DNA of 64,000 bases from Candidatus Zixiibacteriota bacterium (GTDB lineage Bacteria > Zixibacteria > MSB-5A5 > GN15 > FEB-12), in assembly GCA_028289585.1 (NCBI GenBank), contig JANQPI010000042.1, positions 186,001 to 250,000 on the forward strand. The letters run 5' to 3'. The position numbers and the translations under genes were made by a program. The notes beneath the pieces are model-generated. The model ran no database searches and had not been told where the DNA came from. It saw only the letters and a program-made list of their open reading frames with translations. Below are positions 17,376 to 24,854 of this stretch, one piece after another (position 1 is the first letter of the stretch; every line of letters begins with the position of its first letter).

Positions 17376-20000
17376 CTAGAAGTCAAACCGGAACGACCAG
17401 CGGAAGGTATTCGCCAACGCGACTTCATCGTTCGACGGAATGTAACTCACATCAAGTTTCACAAATTCTACACCAACGCCGGCACCAAAGGCGACCGTTT
17501 TGACGCGACCTTCCTGGTCATAGATATAACCACCACGGAGGGCGAAGAAGTCGGAGTAAGCAAACTCGGCACCAAAGTTCCAGATCACTTCCTCAATCTC
17601 CTGACTGAGGCCGTCATCCAGGCCGACCAGCAGTTTGTTGGCCTCAGCAGTGGCGAGGAAGCGAATATCTTCGGACTGAACCAGATCGTAGGCGACACCA
17701 ATCGCCAGGTTGCGTGGCAGCGGATCCGACTGCTCAGCATCGATGTACGCCATGTCGAAACCGAGATTCGTAATTGCTGACCCAAAGCGGAGACGGTCAC
17801 TAGCCAAGTAGAGCAAGCCGAGATCAATCGCGGCACCCCACGAGGTTCCGCTGCCTCGCTCCACACCGGCACCTTGGTCAGCGAGACGAGAGTGAATGAC
17901 CTTGGCCGAGATACCCGCCTTCAGCTTGTTGGAGAGGGAGGTTCCGAACGATCCGGTAACCGCAATATCGAACGAGCTGAACGTACCCAACGTCTGCCCT
18001 GTTTCACCGGTACGCGTAAACTCACCGTAGTTGATGTAGGCGATGCCACCGGCGAGCGTACCGTTGAGACCCGGGACTGGGTGAGCTATCGCTCCATGAA
18101 CGTAATAGAGATCGTCCGTCAGCTCGGGGAGCCAGTTGACGTACATGAAGGAAAACTCGGTGTTCCCTTCGGCAAAGGCAACGACCCGGTCAGAATTGGC
18201 CCACCAAATTTCGCCGTCGACCGTCGCAACTTCAACGGCATCCCCAGTACCAAGACCGGCCTTGTCAGCAAGTCGATAGCTCCCCGCACGATCCCGAACA
18301 ACCATACCACGCGGAGTGGCAAAATAGGTCATTCCTGTTTGGCGGCCGACCGAGCGAATCGCAAGTCCCGTCGGATTGCGTGGCACCCAAAGCGTAGCAC
18401 CCGAGTCGACCGGTTGATCGACGACGTCGTTGAACGTTCGGATAGCATCAATCGTGAGTTCGGTCGATTCACCGATAATCGCCTCAGCGGAAACAAACTC
18501 GCTAAGCGTATTGTACCCTTCGAACGGAACCGCACGCCACCCGGGGACTGACCATGTGCTGCCATCGAAAACGAGCAGTCCGAGGTCGGTACCGAGATAG
18601 AGCGTGCGATCGGGGCTGACGTGGATTGCATTGATCTCACCTACCAACTCTCCAACCATCGGGACAAAGATGTTCTGACCTGGTGTGAGAGTGATCTCCT
18701 CAAGGGCGGGGACGATCGGGTCGCCGTCGGGGGTATCCGGTGGCTGCACGTTCAACTGACGAAACTTCTCCAGCCACGCCTGCTTCTCGGACTCGGTACC
18801 ATAGATGGCAAAGCGCTGGGCAATACGTTCGGGCGTGTCGTCGAGCTGAACTGTGTACTCGGTCGTGGTGACCCAATCGAGCCCGTTGTGACGGTAGAGC
18901 TCGCCGTCGGCAACGGCAAAGACATTGTCGGAACGATCACCACCGATTGCCTGAATGGTCCCGGTGGGCGCCATATCAATGCGTGTCTCAAATCCGGTCA
19001 CCGACCGACCGAACGCCTTGACAGCGCCGGCATCGGTACCGACGAGCACGGCGAACGGAGCACTGGCGAGTGTCGTGATGTTGTTTGACGGAAGACCGTC
19101 ATCGATCGTCAAGTGCTGCCAGCGCCGACCGTCGTACGTGATAATCCCTTCGGTCGTCCCCACGACAAGATTAGGTCCGGTCGACGCAATAGCGGTGAGC
19201 TCACCGGTAGTCAGCGCACCGTACGGTACAAAGAGCTCCTCCGGAATGAATCGATTCCGAGCTCGTTCGGCAGCAAATGAGATGCGGTCGGCCTCGACCT
19301 CGGCAAGTGAACCATCTTCCAGACCGTCGGCAAGACGATCACGCGTCTCATCAACACGATCCCAGTCGATACGGCACTCCGGCCAGAGGACGACAAGCGA
19401 GTCGAGGTTAGCCGAAAGTTCCGTGCGACGGGAGTAGTCTTCCGGGACCACAGCAAGAATCGAGTCGCGAAGGCTCTCGATCCACTCCAAGTTGTAACGG
19501 CTATTGCGTTCGGCAACCGCTGTTACCGCAGACTCGACCTCGGCATCATTGGTCAGATTGAAATAGGTGCTGACAATCCGGCGCACGGTTTCGTCAGACT
19601 TGGTCGCAAAGACTTCACCATCAGACCACGACTTGTAGTTGTAGCGGACCAGACCAACCGGCGTCAATGCCCAGAGATCGAAACTGTCAAAGCTGCTTCC
19701 CCCCTTAACGCGTAACGGTGCAACACCCCGGAGCGGTCGATACCGTTCAGGAACGCGATCCGAGACGAGGGTTTGCGCCAGCGGCGGGAGGGCCAGGCCA
19801 GCCGGATTCCAGTGTACCGCGGTGGCATCCTCGGCGACAGCAACATACGCCTCTCCCATCGCGGCGGCGCGAGCGCCGGGAGCGATACGGAGGAAGAGCA
19901 CGGCGGCATTGGAGATATCCGCTCGGGCCGGGGTGACGGCAATAAATTCGCCGACAGCCATCAACGCCAGCAGAAGGGAAATACGAATCAGCAGTTTCAC
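17376..20000 (-). CDS. PorV/PorQ-family outer-membrane barrel with a large inserted propeller domain
   Basis: The 874-residue protein begins with a signal peptide and the PorV signature region (FLRIAPGARAAAMGEAYVA then AVHWNPAGLA, residues 36-71). The rest of the barrel resumes at FSFMYVNWLPEL (about 617) and ends with phenylalanine. Between about 75 and 612 lies an insertion of more than 500 residues with propeller-type repeats (VVGTTEGIITYDGRRW, LYLGTDLGLLVFDGSTW) and LysM-like segments (EYTVQLDDTPERIAQRF). PorV normally has about 380 residues and shuttles T9SS cargo from the translocon to PorU, encoded directly upstream. The insertion is in frame and uninterrupted, so it is a real domain fusion. 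The family call is strong; the role of the insert is unknown. Confidence 0.85.
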   Translation of the reverse strand: MKLLIRISLLLALMAVGEFIAVTPARADISNAAVLFLRIAPGARAAAMGEAYVAVAEDATAVHWNPAGLALPPLAQTLVSDRVPERYRPLRGVAPLRVKGGSSFDSFDLWALTPVGLVRYNYKSWSDGEVFATKSDETVRRIVSTYFNLTNDAEVESAVTAVAERNSRYNLEWIESLRDSILAVVPEDYSRRTELSANLDSLVVLWPECRIDWDRVDETRDRLADGLEDGSLAEVEADRISFAAERARNRFIPEELFVPYGALTTGELTAIASTGPNLVVGTTEGIITYDGRRWQHLTIDDGLPSNNITTLASAPFAVLVGTDAGAVKAFGRSVTGFETRIDMAPTGTIQAIGGDRSDNVFAVADGELYRHNGLDWVTTTEYTVQLDDTPERIAQRFAIYGTESEKQAWLEKFRQLNVQPPDTPDGDPIVPALEEITLTPGQNIFVPMVGELVGEINAIHVSPDRTLYLGTDLGLLVFDGSTWSVPGWRAVPFEGYNTLSEFVSAEAIIGESTELTIDAIRTFNDVVDQPVDSGATLWVPRNPTGLAIRSVGRQTGMTYFATPRGMVVRDRAGSYRLADKAGLGTGDAVEVATVDGEIWWANSDRVVAFAEGNTEFSFMYVNWLPELTDDLYYVHGAIAHPVPGLNGTLAGGIAYINYGEFTRTGETGQTLGTFSSFDIAVTGSFGTSLSNKLKAGISAKVIHSRLADQGAGVERGSGTSWGAAIDLGLLYLASDRLRFGSAITNLGFDMAYIDAEQSDPLPRNLAIGVAYDLVQSEDIRFLATAEANKLLVGLDDGLSQEIEEVIWNFGAEFAYSDFFALRGGYIYDQEGRVKTVAFGAGVGVEFVKLDVSYIPSNDEVALANTFRWSFRFDF

Positions 20001-20011
20001 GCGAATGACTC

Positions 20012-23000
20012 CTATTGATTAATCACTACGATTTTGCCAAATGATTCCGTCTCACCCGAAAGACCACCGACCGCCACGGCTTTGAAGAGATAGACGCCGG
20101 TGGCAACGCGGTCACCCGCGAAATCGGTACCATCCCACGCGAGTTCCAAGCGACTATTGGGATAGCGATCAGCCGCAAGATTCGGTGCCGAAAGCGTCCG
20201 GATCTTGCGCCCGGCGACGGTAAAAATGTCGATCGTCATGCGATCGATCGGGGAGGCAAGTTCAAAATGGAAAGTGGTCGCATCGACCATCGGATTCGGG
20301 TACGTAAGCACCTCAGACAACGCATCAGCTCCCGACTCTACCAACGCGAGACGCGTGGTTGCCGTCGATGAATTGTTTGCGTTGTCCCAGGCCTTGACTT
20401 TCACATTCACTTCCCCGGCGGGGAGTGTATCCAATAACAGCGTCGCCTGCCCCACCGTCGCCTGTCCATCATCGTAGACGAACGAGGGTGTCAGATCGAT
20501 CACCCGATCCGGATCGTTGTCAATCTCAACGACCACCTGCTGACCGATTGCTCCGGAAAGGTTGATGCCCGAGGTATCGGCAAGGCGAACAACAAAGGCA
20601 TCGTCGCGTGTAACCCGGTCTCCGGGAGAGAATGATTCCCGTCCTTCGATCGCGAAGCTAATCGCCGGACCGACCGAATCGGTGACCGGCGCGACAGTCG
20701 ATGCGACCGGGATCGAGTCAACCAATCCGGAGGCGTCAACGGTACCGAGATTAGCGTAGGCAACAACACGAGCTCCGGCGGAACCGTAGGCAATGTCGAC
20801 CGGCGTTACGAATGAGAAGGAGAACGTGCCGTTAACGATTGGTGCTGTCCCGCGAAAAAGCGTGGGGCCATTTACATTGTAGGTAACCGACTGAAGACCA
20901 TTGGCCAGCCGATACGTCCGACTCCGGTCCGAGTCGTAAACATCAATCGTCAACTGACCGTTCATCGCCAGGCGTTGACCGTCCAGGTCGACAACCTCAC
21001 CGACAACGGTTTCCCGACCCAGGCCAACGAGCGAATCGGGGGCATCAGTGAAGGTAACACGGTATTCGGGGATGCCGATCCGCAGGAACGGATCGCCGAG
21101 AAGAATATACTGTTCGTCATTCGGAACGCGTTGAAAGCGACCCGTGCGATACTGTCGTTGCAGTTTCGCCGCGTAGAAGATATGGGCGAACGAGAGCGAG
21201 TCGTTCTCGAAGAAGACCTCGTACGCCTTCTTGTTGAATTCAGAGTTGTCGAACGAATAGACCAGTCGCGACGCGGCAACGACACCAATCGCCCCACCAC
21301 CGGGAATTGCCAGCAAGTCTTCGCCCATCGATGATCGCTGCGGATCATCGTAAAATGCAATCGCGCAGGACGCCGCAAAGATCAGCGGCAAGCGATCCCG
21401 ATTGGTCAACCGAGGTATGTCGCCAGCACGATCGAAGACACGCTCATTCGACCAGACATCCGGATTCCCGTGGCCGACATAGTTAACAACGGCAGCGCCG
21501 CTGTTGATTGCCTGCACGATCACGTCATTGACCTCGGGTTTCCGTCGATTCACAAACGGATACTCCCAGAGATAGATCTTTTCCTGTACAATGCGCCGCG
21601 GGATGAAATTCCGAGACAGTTCCTCTGTCTGGGTCGTATGGAACGCTTCGTTCGTAGATGATCCGGCAAACTCATCATCAGCCACCAGGACGACACGATT
21701 GCGCCAGGGTGCGAGGTTCGACGGTGATTCGTACGCAATGACTTTGTCCGTAATGATCTGGACTTCGGAAGACGTTGACACCGGCCACCGGGCGGTCATC
21801 ATATCGAACCCAACCCCCGGGACGTAGGTCGCCGTGTCGCCCAGCAGTGAACCAACTGGACCAAAATACACATAGTTGTCGTCAGAGAATGAAGCCGAGA
21901 TCGCGGCGCGCCCCGGTCGGATGTAGGCCGGGACGATATTCGGTTCCCCGGTACCGAGACGATCGGTGAAATCGTAGTTGGCGTCACCGACGAAGAGAAC
22001 CGCCGCCGGCCGTGGGGCGGGGAATGTCTCAAACGCAAACTTCAGATAGTCGCGAATACCCGTTGGATCCGGGCTACCATAGCCAAAATTACTCGTGATA
22101 TCGGTGACCGTAACGAGGTGCGTCGAAACACCCTGAGTCGATCGGTAGTCTCGATACCGCTGCATTGCCGGAGCCAGTTGTTCCGACGTCACGATAATCA
22201 AGTCGGCCTGGGGTACGGATGAACGTAAATCGGTAACGGTGTTGGTGACGATCGCTCCGACTGGAACGGCGGCCGCAGCTGTTGTTGCAAAAACGCGATT
22301 GGGACCGATTGCGACAAGATCGAGTCCGGCGCGCACCTGCCCTCCGCTCCGGGTGTATCCGGTAAGTCGAACCGGAGCCGCTGGGTCATCGACGCGGAAG
22401 AGCCACGGTTCGCTGCTGAAGAGGTCGGTAATGACAACCTCAGCCCGTCCGGCCGCCACCCCAATAACCAGATCGAGTTTATCTCCCTCCGGACGGAGTT
22501 GCCGCTCGTAGGCAAATTCGGCGTGATCGAAGTAAGGGGGAATCGAGGTCCGCTGCCGACCAAAACTCAAGTCGAAGCGATTGGCACCATCAATCAAAGC
22601 AGTCGTGGAAAACGAACAGTTGAATCGATTACAAATCTTACCCTGGCCCGCCGAACCGTTGATCACTAAATCCATGAAAGCGACCGGTCCACAGCAGTTA
22701 TTCGTCTTTCCGATCAGAAGCATGTCAACTGTGACACCCGGAACGATACCCGGAGTAGGCACAAAGACAGTGAGGCTGGCTTCATTCGTCCAGTGCCACG
22801 CGAAGTAGTCCTCGATGTGGCCGTTGATATCCTCAGATATCAGATTGTCCTGCTCAACGCGCACCCAATCGTCGAACGATGTAATCGTCGTATCCGCCGA
22901 GCCGGGAGCTGCAGCAATCGACGCCATCCGCTGACTGGGGCCGGGAAGAGCCGTCGACACCGTCAGCCAGTAAATCGATTCGTCGGTGTAGATGTTATTC

Positions 23001-23926
23001 TCGTACTGAGGTACCGTATCCGGTCGAAAGAGCCATCGATCGGGAAGTTCGCCAATGAAATAGGCAATATCCGACAGGTCGAACGAGCCGTCTCCACCAT
23101 CCTGGAGGAACAGCGGAACCTCGCGAAAGTCGGGCCGCAACTGAGCAGCATCGGTCGGAATGATGCGATTGTCACCGGCGAACAGGCGAATCCTATCCGA
23201 CGGTATCGGCACCGAGGTCAATCCCGAGGCGGCCAGCTCCGCCCCGGTGAAGCGATAGAGATCGAGTTCATCTCCGCCAAGGTTGGCTGAGAGCCGTAAC
23301 TCAGCCCATGCCGAGGTGAGTGTAAAGGGATGCTCCGGTGTTGTCGCGAGAGCGGTTGCGGAGCGTGCGGGAAACGAGCGCGGCCAGCGCGAGAAGTCTT
23401 CGTAGTTCACAACGGAGGCGGCGAAGATCGGATCGAAGTGGGGATCGGCTGACGGTCGGTCAGTGACCGAACGGTCAGGACCATCAAAACGAATCGTGAT
23501 ATCGAGATGGGAGAGTAAGGTTCCGTTGCGAAGAGGTGCGATCGCCAGGGTAACGAGGCGTGCACCCCGCTGCGTCCAGACAGTCGAGAGCGATGCTATT
23601 GGCAGATCGACGAGATTGGTCAGGGTAAGGTCGGTTGGCCTTGATTCAATGACGCGGAGATCGGCAAGTCGAGGCTGCTTGTTCGGAGGAACACCAATGA
23701 CGAAAGATGTCGTCGCGGCTACGGACGTGTCGTCGACGGTGGAGACGACTACATCGTTCCGCGCATCAGCGATGGTGACACTGAGTCGCAGTCGATTAGA
23801 CGATGACTCAACGACATCAACCGACGCCGACAGAGAGCCGCCAAGAATCACGCAAACGAGAGCTGTAGTGAAAAAGTTCTTCAACGTATATCGTCGGTTA
23901 TCCAGTGCCTCAGGCACCAGTACCAT
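20012..23926 (-). CDS. porU: PorU-like T9SS sortase (peptidase family C25, gingipain-like)
   Basis: A 1304-residue secreted protein with a hydrophobic signal near residues 17-34, a beta-rich N-terminal region, and a C25 caspase-like domain (about 570-950). Catalytic His is H819 in NYVGHGNPD and catalytic Cys is C854 in AASCAIAFYDDP, followed by the PorU-like stretch GGGAIGVVAASRLVYS. The C-terminus is a T9SS-type domain starting at LTYPNPMVDATTF with a FlgD-like fold. PorU removes the sorting domain of T9SS cargo and attaches it at the surface together with PorV, the next gene 11 bases downstream. ATG 23926 is used; a TTG at 23884 begins nearer to the hydrophobic core but lacks a Shine-Dalgarno. 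Confidence 0.88.
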   Translation of the reverse strand: MVLVPEALDNRRYTLKNFFTTALVCVILGGSLSASVDVVESSSNRLRLSVTIADARNDVVVSTVDDTSVAATTSFVIGVPPNKQPRLADLRVIESRPTDLTLTNLVDLPIASLSTVWTQRGARLVTLAIAPLRNGTLLSHLDITIRFDGPDRSVTDRPSADPHFDPIFAASVVNYEDFSRWPRSFPARSATALATTPEHPFTLTSAWAELRLSANLGGDELDLYRFTGAELAASGLTSVPIPSDRIRLFAGDNRIIPTDAAQLRPDFREVPLFLQDGGDGSFDLSDIAYFIGELPDRWLFRPDTVPQYENNIYTDESIYWLTVSTALPGPSQRMASIAAAPGSADTTITSFDDWVRVEQDNLISEDINGHIEDYFAWHWTNEASLTVFVPTPGIVPGVTVDMLLIGKTNNCCGPVAFMDLVINGSAGQGKICNRFNCSFSTTALIDGANRFDLSFGRQRTSIPPYFDHAEFAYERQLRPEGDKLDLVIGVAAGRAEVVITDLFSSEPWLFRVDDPAAPVRLTGYTRSGGQVRAGLDLVAIGPNRVFATTAAAAVPVGAIVTNTVTDLRSSVPQADLIIVTSEQLAPAMQRYRDYRSTQGVSTHLVTVTDITSNFGYGSPDPTGIRDYLKFAFETFPAPRPAAVLFVGDANYDFTDRLGTGEPNIVPAYIRPGRAAISASFSDDNYVYFGPVGSLLGDTATYVPGVGFDMMTARWPVSTSSEVQIITDKVIAYESPSNLAPWRNRVVLVADDEFAGSSTNEAFHTTQTEELSRNFIPRRIVQEKIYLWEYPFVNRRKPEVNDVIVQAINSGAAVVNYVGHGNPDVWSNERVFDRAGDIPRLTNRDRLPLIFAASCAIAFYDDPQRSSMGEDLLAIPGGGAIGVVAASRLVYSFDNSEFNKKAYEVFFENDSLSFAHIFYAAKLQRQYRTGRFQRVPNDEQYILLGDPFLRIGIPEYRVTFTDAPDSLVGLGRETVVGEVVDLDGQRLAMNGQLTIDVYDSDRSRTYRLANGLQSVTYNVNGPTLFRGTAPIVNGTFSFSFVTPVDIAYGSAGARVVAYANLGTVDASGLVDSIPVASTVAPVTDSVGPAISFAIEGRESFSPGDRVTRDDAFVVRLADTSGINLSGAIGQQVVVEIDNDPDRVIDLTPSFVYDDGQATVGQATLLLDTLPAGEVNVKVKAWDNANNSSTATTRLALVESGADALSEVLTYPNPMVDATTFHFELASPIDRMTIDIFTVAGRKIRTLSAPNLAADRYPNSRLELAWDGTDFAGDRVATGVYLFKAVAVGGLSGETESFGKIVVINQ

Positions 23927-24054
23927 AGAGGCCGCTCACGGGCGGCCGGTTATCACGGTTTGCAGTCTCTTAGAGAGGCTGCGCCTTACTGTTGTATCGT
24001 CGTTTTAGGCCGTTAACCGTGAATCGATATACGTCTCCTTATCAGATAATATCC
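23927..24054 (-). promoter_or_regulatory. Structured 5' leader of the porU operon
   Basis: The roughly 128-base untranslated leader can fold into a compact three-way arrangement. A closing stem pairs 23954-23960 with 24015-24021 (7 bp, CACGGTT/AACCGTG). A hairpin lies at 23962-23970/23974-23982 (9 pairs with one G-U in the RNA), and a 4-bp stem joins 23983-23986 with 24007-24010. A separate 6-bp hairpin (23930-23935/23942-23947) lies directly before the ATG. No known riboswitch signature was recognised. Confidence 0.4.
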
Positions 24055-24060
24055 GCCGGG

Positions 24061-24089
24061 AGCATAAAAGGTTCCGGCTTCTCTGTCAA
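24061..24089 (-). promoter_or_regulatory. Sigma70-type promoter of the porU operon
   Basis: On the minus strand a perfect TTGACA (24089-24084) is followed after 17 bases by TATGCT (24066-24061). It is the only strong promoter seen upstream of the eight-gene block that runs from porU down to the Omp85 gene. Confidence 0.7.
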
Positions 24090-24254
24090 TCTGACAACTC
24101 TCTAGCTTGTGGCAAGTTACGGGCCAATAACAATCAAAAACGCCAGCAAACATCAGTTATCAGGCTAAGTGGATGACGCCCCTCCCCCCCAGCTCGTGGA
24201 ACCGGAACGTATACATTCCGCTTCGGACAGCTCAATCCTGCAAGCTTGTGCATA
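24090..24254. other. Intergenic stretch between the tryptophanase operon and the porU promoter
   Basis: Together with the leader and promoter this makes a gap of about 330 bases without a gene. It contains a near-palindrome at 24204-24219 (GGAACGTATACATTCC, one mismatched pair) and a run of C residues at 24181-24190. No convincing terminator with a T-tract follows the lipoprotein gene, so some read-through into the porU block is possible. Confidence 0.3.
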
Positions 24255-24854
24255 CTATCGCCGAAATGGAAACGGACCGATCGCCGGAAGATCCGATTCC
24301 AGGTCATCTCGAACACGATCGCGACGCTCCCGTAATCGGAGCAATCGGTCTCGATAGTCAGCAACCGAATTGGGGAGGAAAAATGTCGCGTTATACACGT
24401 CGTAGTAGAGCTGCGCGTAGCCGGTTAAGGCATCAAGATACGGAGGATCAACCTGACGGGCCGCCCGCATCTCGGCGAGTCCGGCCTCCATCACCGCTTC
24501 GTCGGCCCGAAGATTGGCCAGACGTGGCTCAAGCATCTGGTCCACTTCCGACTGGAGATCAAGACCGGTCGGCTCCTGACCCGAAGACGCCATCTGCTCC
24601 CACTGAGCTGCCACCGATTCACCGGTGAGGAGATATGACTCCGTCACGGAGTCAACGTGACGAGTCCAAAAAGCCATTTGACGCTCGGGGGGGAGTCGCA
24701 GTAGCTGCTCCATCCAGCGTGCGCGCCAGGCCGCAGCCTCATCGCGACTTCGGTCCCTCGCTTCGTCACGCGTCTCCGGTCCAGTATCGATCCGTACCCC
24801 GGAGCAGGCGACCAGTGTCGCAACCGCCAGTGCCAACAACAACACCCGTACCAT
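24255..24854 (-). CDS. Lipoprotein of unknown function, coupled to tryptophanase
   Basis: A 199-residue protein with a lipoprotein signal (lipobox LVAC, Cys at about 17) and a charged, almost entirely helical mature part rich in Arg, Glu and Asp, probably coiled coil in places (about 120-190). Its ATG overlaps the tnaA stop as TGATG, so the two are translationally coupled. Nothing in the sequence suggests an enzyme. It was not recognised as a known family. The link to indole or amino-acid metabolism is positional only. Confidence 0.75.
   Translation of the reverse strand: MVRVLLLALAVATLVACSGVRIDTGPETRDEARDRSRDEAAAWRARWMEQLLRLPPERQMAFWTRHVDSVTESYLLTGESVAAQWEQMASSGQEPTGLDLQSEVDQMLEPRLANLRADEAVMEAGLAEMRAARQVDPPYLDALTGYAQLYYDVYNATFFLPNSVADYRDRLLRLRERRDRVRDDLESDLPAIGPFPFRR

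Follow-up and report, generated by a model that had tools for sequence, protein, structure and literature searches.

The region at positions 23927-24054 of the window, the stretch of 64,000 nucleotides analysed here, is best read as the 5' leader of a porU-porV transcript and as a diverged member of a family of leaders, the RNA of which would act as a two-state attenuator of porU. We hold this reading with reasonable though by no means full confidence, and the porU leader is probably a hitherto undescribed on/off switch. In the first of the two proposed states the P1/P2 arm would form, leaving the last hairpin, either a terminator or a hairpin at the start codon, free to keep expression low. 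In the second state an antiterminator-type helix would take up the 3' strand of P2 (families f1 and f4) or the P1' side (family f2), upon which transcription or translation would proceed; this competing helix would overlap the base of the last hairpin. In relatives of the window leader the helices covary, the competing helix is present, terminators abut the start codon and the leaders are linked to porU. From such data we infer that the two states are used as a switch and which of them is the active one; the trigger may be a small molecule, a protein or the ribosome.

The porU gene, specifying the sortase of the type IX secretion system, occupies positions 20012-23926 of the minus strand, and the leader is therefore read on that strand, from 24054 to 23927. 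The porU product matches PorU (NF033707) at 597.5 bits, the cut-off being 420, and its closest named relatives are mostly from MAGs of Candidatus Zixiibacteriota. Translation may start at ATG 23926 or at TTG 23884, the former giving 14 residues more; the TTG start would yield MKNFFTTALVCVILGG, a sequence resembling a signal peptide. A gene of the PorV/PorQ family (17376-20000, minus strand) follows 11 nt downstream and probably forms one operon with porU. Its product has a PorV-like N-terminus (residues 21-70) and a barrel (residues 583-874), with some 500 residues between them. Both upstream neighbours of porU, a reading frame of 199 amino acids with an N-terminus that looks lipoprotein-like to us and a tryptophanase-like gene, are also on the minus strand.

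Read on the minus strand, positions 23927-24054 yield a fold of -40.1 kcal/mol versus -29.3 kcal/mol for shuffled sequences (z = -2.99; 1 of 200 shuffles equal). The minimum-energy structure is the one reported in the initial annotation, with a closing stem, two inner stems and a hairpin at the start codon, except that the closing stem counts 8 bp instead of 7. As the plus strand folds about equally well (z = -2.78), the strand is not fixed by folding energy alone. Extending the leader to 23870 adds an 11-bp helix and lowers z to -4.62, a value equalled by none of 200 shuffles. This helix, P1 (GACGUAUAUCG/CGAUAUACGUU; 24035-24025 with 23893-23883, minus strand), encloses the rest of the structure; its 3' strand, P1', is displaced relative to that of the relatives and reaches into the alternative TTG start codon at 23884. 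The closing stem is P2 (UCACGGUU/AACCGUGA; 24022-24015 with 23960-23953); two compensatory pair changes, each affecting both sides, distinguish it from the family pattern CUACGGUU/AACCGUAG. Its loop (23962-24010) is lineage specific and holds P3a (24010-24007 with 23986-23983) and the P3b hairpin (23982-23962). The three-way junction to which the initial annotation gave prominence is not a conserved feature, since 8 of 10 loops folded contain one hairpin and only 2, that of the window included, contain two. A P4-like hairpin, GGCCGC-CCGUGA-GCGGCC (23930-23947), ends 3 nt before ATG 23926 and has no U-run; relatives carry GGGCCGGGU..ACCCGG or an intrinsic terminator at this position. An additional hairpin, CUGGUGCC-UGA-GGCACUGG (23902-23920), was not seen in the relatives read.

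PorU is present in all 61 genomes searched (the window's own and 60 relatives), in some of them as fragments. The relatives share one order of elements before the gene: a sigma54-like site, a TTGACA promoter, GGAG, UAU(A/C)G, (G)GUUAA, a variable loop, the complementary strands and a GC hairpin located 1-7 nt before ATG. A DNA similarity search of the 61 genomes with the window leader returned the window itself only. The covariance model R1 was built from 26 leaders of families f1 and f4 (alignment A2, restricted to leaders with a typical hairpin). R1 found matches in 43 of the 61 genomes at an E value of 0.1; at 0.01, the 132 genomes of the class gave 56 places, spread over 54 genomes. All 45 places with an E value of 1.9e-5 or better adjoin porU, as judged from coordinates, from tblastn or, at a contig end in genome G024, from the printed peptide; six of the other 11 lie at porU and five do not. 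These five weak matches (G116, G131, G035:C99, G053:C339 and G016:C15; E values of 1.9e-4 to 2.9e-3), at which tblastn detected no PorU, look like fits to the GC hairpin only. Clear leaders are present at porU in six f2 genomes in which R1 misses them; as the model was trained on f1 and f4, the 78 unmatched genomes are no evidence of absence. Via R1, terminator-like hairpins before porU also came to light in two more families of the class, f8 and f9 (L172 and L175). No match above the Rfam 15 gathering cut-off was obtained in the window, in 20 porU loci or in 15 further loci, in line with the initial annotation, in which the conserved bases of no riboswitch class were recognised in the leader. 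The sX9 and ST7-OT4_2 hits from a loose-threshold search of 23850-24270 are chance matches below the gathering cut-off.

RNAalifold returned no structure from a MAFFT alignment of 41 leaders, so the structures were drawn up manually and then assessed by counting pairs and by swapping partner strands. In alignment A3, which was fitted to R1 and holds 48 distinct rows, one of them a probable false match (L014 3294-3361), 84.9 % of the cells are paired compared to 79.0 % after shuffling, and the covariation score is 0.207 versus 0.124, with none of 500 shuffles reaching the former. When the own partner strand was compared with swapped ones in 26 leaders, a test in which shared ancestry is uncorrected, z scores of -10.6 for P1 and -4.6 for P2 were obtained. 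The competing helix, GGCCC..AACCG with CGGUU..GGGCC, scored -3.65 in the same test (1 in 10000), and three control pairings gave no signal. A further helix, P0, is formed between porU codons ~4-8 and the 5' end (UUUAUACAG and its variants): pairing energy in 26 f1 leaders is -14.5 kcal/mol versus -10.8 kcal/mol upon permutation (0 of 5000 as good), four f4 leaders, in which P0 is absent, having been left out of the test. P0 is lost in L013 and weak in some others. In f2-type leaders, 94.4 % of the P1/P2 cells are paired, with double changes in 7 pairs. The f2 antiterminator hairpin is paired in 49 of 49 cells, with double changes in 2 pairs, and does not rise above its shuffles (74 of 500 equal it). 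The covariation among homologous leaders that the initial annotation proposed to look for is thus found in P1, P2, the competing helix and P0. With it, the lack of an Rfam family and the placement of the promoter described below, the suggestion of a structured, regulatory-type leader before porU is borne out.

Among 26 full-length leaders, the P2 state is energetically preferred over the competing state in 18, and in only 11 do the two lie within 5 kcal/mol of each other. As the energies favour P2, a switch would need folding during transcription or a partner. GGCCC:GGGCC could also be a pseudoknot formed alongside P2.

The last hairpin of all seven f2 cases (six of six fetched genomes and L087) qualifies as an intrinsic terminator, carrying 6-8 U residues, and the start codon, ATG or GTG, follows within ~2 nt. 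The exception is L161 (G051), in which no usual porU start is seen at the expected place and ATT follows the U-run. L016 (G014) likewise has no usual start there and carries an in-frame stop after GTG. In L155 and L156, both of family f3, ATG comes after a terminator; f4 members have GGGCCGGG..CCCGG, UUUCUUU or UUUUUUU, and then ATG, as in L146, which ends in CCGGGUU..AACCCGG-UUUUUUU-AUG. In f1 the hairpin is kept and the U-run is often lost. Helices predicted to be mutually exclusive, among them a terminator or start-site hairpin, are seen in the relatives; the window copy has no recognisable antiterminator strand. In f2 a strong promoter and the terminator frame an RNA of ~165-200 nt, as would be expected if the terminator ended a separate small RNA gene and porU had a promoter of its own. 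Such a gene is very unlikely, however: the strong R1 matches all lie before porU, the U-run abuts the start codon and leaves no space for a second promoter, and in f1 porU codons form part of P0.

Upstream of the window leader, a sigma70-type promoter, TTGACA-17-TATGCT, is predicted at 24061-24089 (minus strand). It puts the expected start of transcription near 24054, upstream of 23960, the position downstream of which a start would, according to the initial annotation, speak against the leader. A -35 element occurs at the corresponding place in 58 of 58 leaders examined, a sample from which near-duplicates were merged and L007 and L036 (a run of N) and L098, L101-L104, L107, L111 and L112 (uncertain or outside Zixibacteria) were omitted. 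A predicted leader position, placed strictly before porU by the strong matches, and a covarying structure are both features of a cis-regulatory attenuator. The spacer of the window promoter contains GGAAC, and a motif like it is present in that of 43 of the 58 leaders. We take GGAAC to resemble the -35 element of an ECF-type promoter, and it may mark a second, overlapping promoter. Further upstream lies a sigma54-type promoter-like site, TTGGCCCGTAACTTGC (24112-24127, minus strand). GG-N8-TTGC, which has the spacing of sigma54 sites, is found at a nearly fixed place within 130 nt upstream of the -35 element in 54 of the 58 leaders compared to 3.3 % of shuffled sequences, and 19 of 21 genomes, that of the window included, have a gene for RpoN. 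As a sequence pattern, the conserved sigma54-like site before porU suggests activator-dependent transcription of a T9SS gene. That TAT(A/C)G and GGTTAA are strongly conserved would also suit stems that are inverted repeats in the DNA, bound by a regulator. This explanation is hardly credible, because the arms are far apart, the loop lengths vary, single-sided G-U changes are kept and terminators follow.

The leader starts with a site complementary to the anti-Shine-Dalgarno (SD) sequence: in the window, AAGGAG with its GGAG at 24035-24038 (minus strand) pairs with the 16S tail at -8.2 kcal/mol, and the organism's own 16S rRNA retains CCTCC. In the relatives, 27 of 27 leaders have such a site at their 5' end at -7.3 kcal/mol or better (mean -9.5), 127-165 nt upstream of the start codon. 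An SD at the porU start codon itself is not above chance in these leaders (22 % at -5 or better versus 21.5 % in random sequences); L029 and L048, which are diverged, and L016, in which no plain ATG follows the hairpin, were not counted. For comparison, 69 % of 35 long open reading frames of the window reach -5 or better, a generous figure as the best of several starts was taken. The combination of a strong remote SD and a start without one may reflect a split ribosome-binding site, a decoy site or simple avoidance of false starts. In the first case, the fold would serve to place the distant GGAG beside the porU start, and not to switch; P0, which in f1 pairs the 5' end with codons just past AUG, would suit such a role. 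A precedent is found in genes 38 and 25 of phage T4, in which SD spacings of 22 and 27 nt are reduced to 5 and 11 (PMC3014915). The T4 sites share with the porU leader an SD distant from the start and structure in between, whereas the porU leader would have to bridge 127-165 nt, has a large branched fold and has terminators in relatives. The distance to be bridged is thus far beyond that in T4. The terminators of f2, f3 and f4 and the competing helix would be left unexplained, f4 has no P0, and in L026, L045 and L047 the apparent porU ATG lies, in our reading, inside the P1' strand. Without switching, a split site is accordingly unlikely. In the latter three leaders, P1 could hide the porU start codon.

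At the canonical distance from GGAG (offset 10 from the first G), within UAU(A/C)G, the window has AUC (24026-24028, minus strand). The codon at this spacing is AUA in 36, AUC in 20, AUU in 1 and AUG in none of the 57 leaders, out of 58, that could be placed, a count that is not blind since the register was chosen by us with preference for a following G. A leader-peptide attenuator was rejected: of 61 leaders, 58, 54 and 51, depending on the frame, run into a stop within 15 codons (the register being misplaced in 5 rows), and the peptide is not conserved. The strong SD and the near-cognate AUA/AUC codon, both situated on the 5' strand of P1, might be a decoy ribosome-binding site, at which a docked 30S subunit would start poorly, block P1 and favour the antiterminator, an idea we regard as quite improbable; if true, porU expression would sense free 30S subunits or the fidelity of initiation and not a metabolite.

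Within the two-state attenuator family, the window leader is a deviating case. Under R1 it scores 6.7 bits (E = 0.39 over 8 kb, the best place there) and is missed in whole-genome scans. Its assignment to the Zixibacteria porU leaders is therefore based on position, on the order of the elements and on the P2 compensation, and not on score. It keeps the sigma54-like site, both sigma70 hexamers, GGAAC, GGAG, UAUAUCG, CACGGUUAACG, AACCGUG and the GC hairpin before ATG. No recognisable copy of the antiterminator strand CGGUU..GGGCC is present in it, and its P1' strand is shifted behind the extra hairpin. A direct repeat, GATAACCG (~23953-23946 and 23903-23896), flanks the start-codon hairpin and the extra hairpin, which suggests an insertion or duplication in the window leader. 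With the arm and the start-codon hairpin kept and the antiterminator strand unrecognisable, control in the window is probably translational or otherwise changed. The low score, the lost strand, the extra hairpin and the displaced P1' would equally suit a decayed remnant that folds without function, the leaders of relatives still being used. There is some chance of this, albeit a minor one, as P2 has been kept via two compensatory changes, P1 has arisen anew as an 11-bp helix, GGAG and the two promoter elements are unimpaired, and the extended fold is much more stable than those of shuffled sequences. Conserved P1, the terminators of relatives, the competing helix, P0, the remote SD and the sigma54-like site had all escaped the initial annotation.

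The proposed attenuator shares with riboswitches and attenuator leaders a conserved 5' arm, a competing helix, a terminator or start-codon hairpin and outputs that vary between lineages. It differs from them in having no Rfam class, a single target gene, porU, and a strong remote SD-like site. Orphan structured RNAs from intergenic surveys are of the same sort and were likewise obtained by comparative folding of leaders (PMC2864571; PMC8632094; PMC11109978). The main texts of these three reports do not contain "porU", and "type IX" and "sortase" were not found in those of PMC8632094 and PMC11109978. In the open-access literature on type IX secretion and riboswitches, no porU leader appears in titles or in the beginnings of abstracts, and open-access full texts yielded nothing for Zixibacteria and riboswitch. 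The switch would bring the sortase of type IX secretion under RNA control, in a phylum that is uncultured and of which little regulation is known, and the strong SD distant from an SD-less start poses a concrete puzzle on how structured leaders recruit ribosomes. Leaders with GGAG-TATCGA and a terminator-like hairpin before porU were also observed in two MAGs assigned to Ignavibacteriales (L103) and "Bacteroidetes" (L098), and a wider family is possible on the basis of these resemblances.
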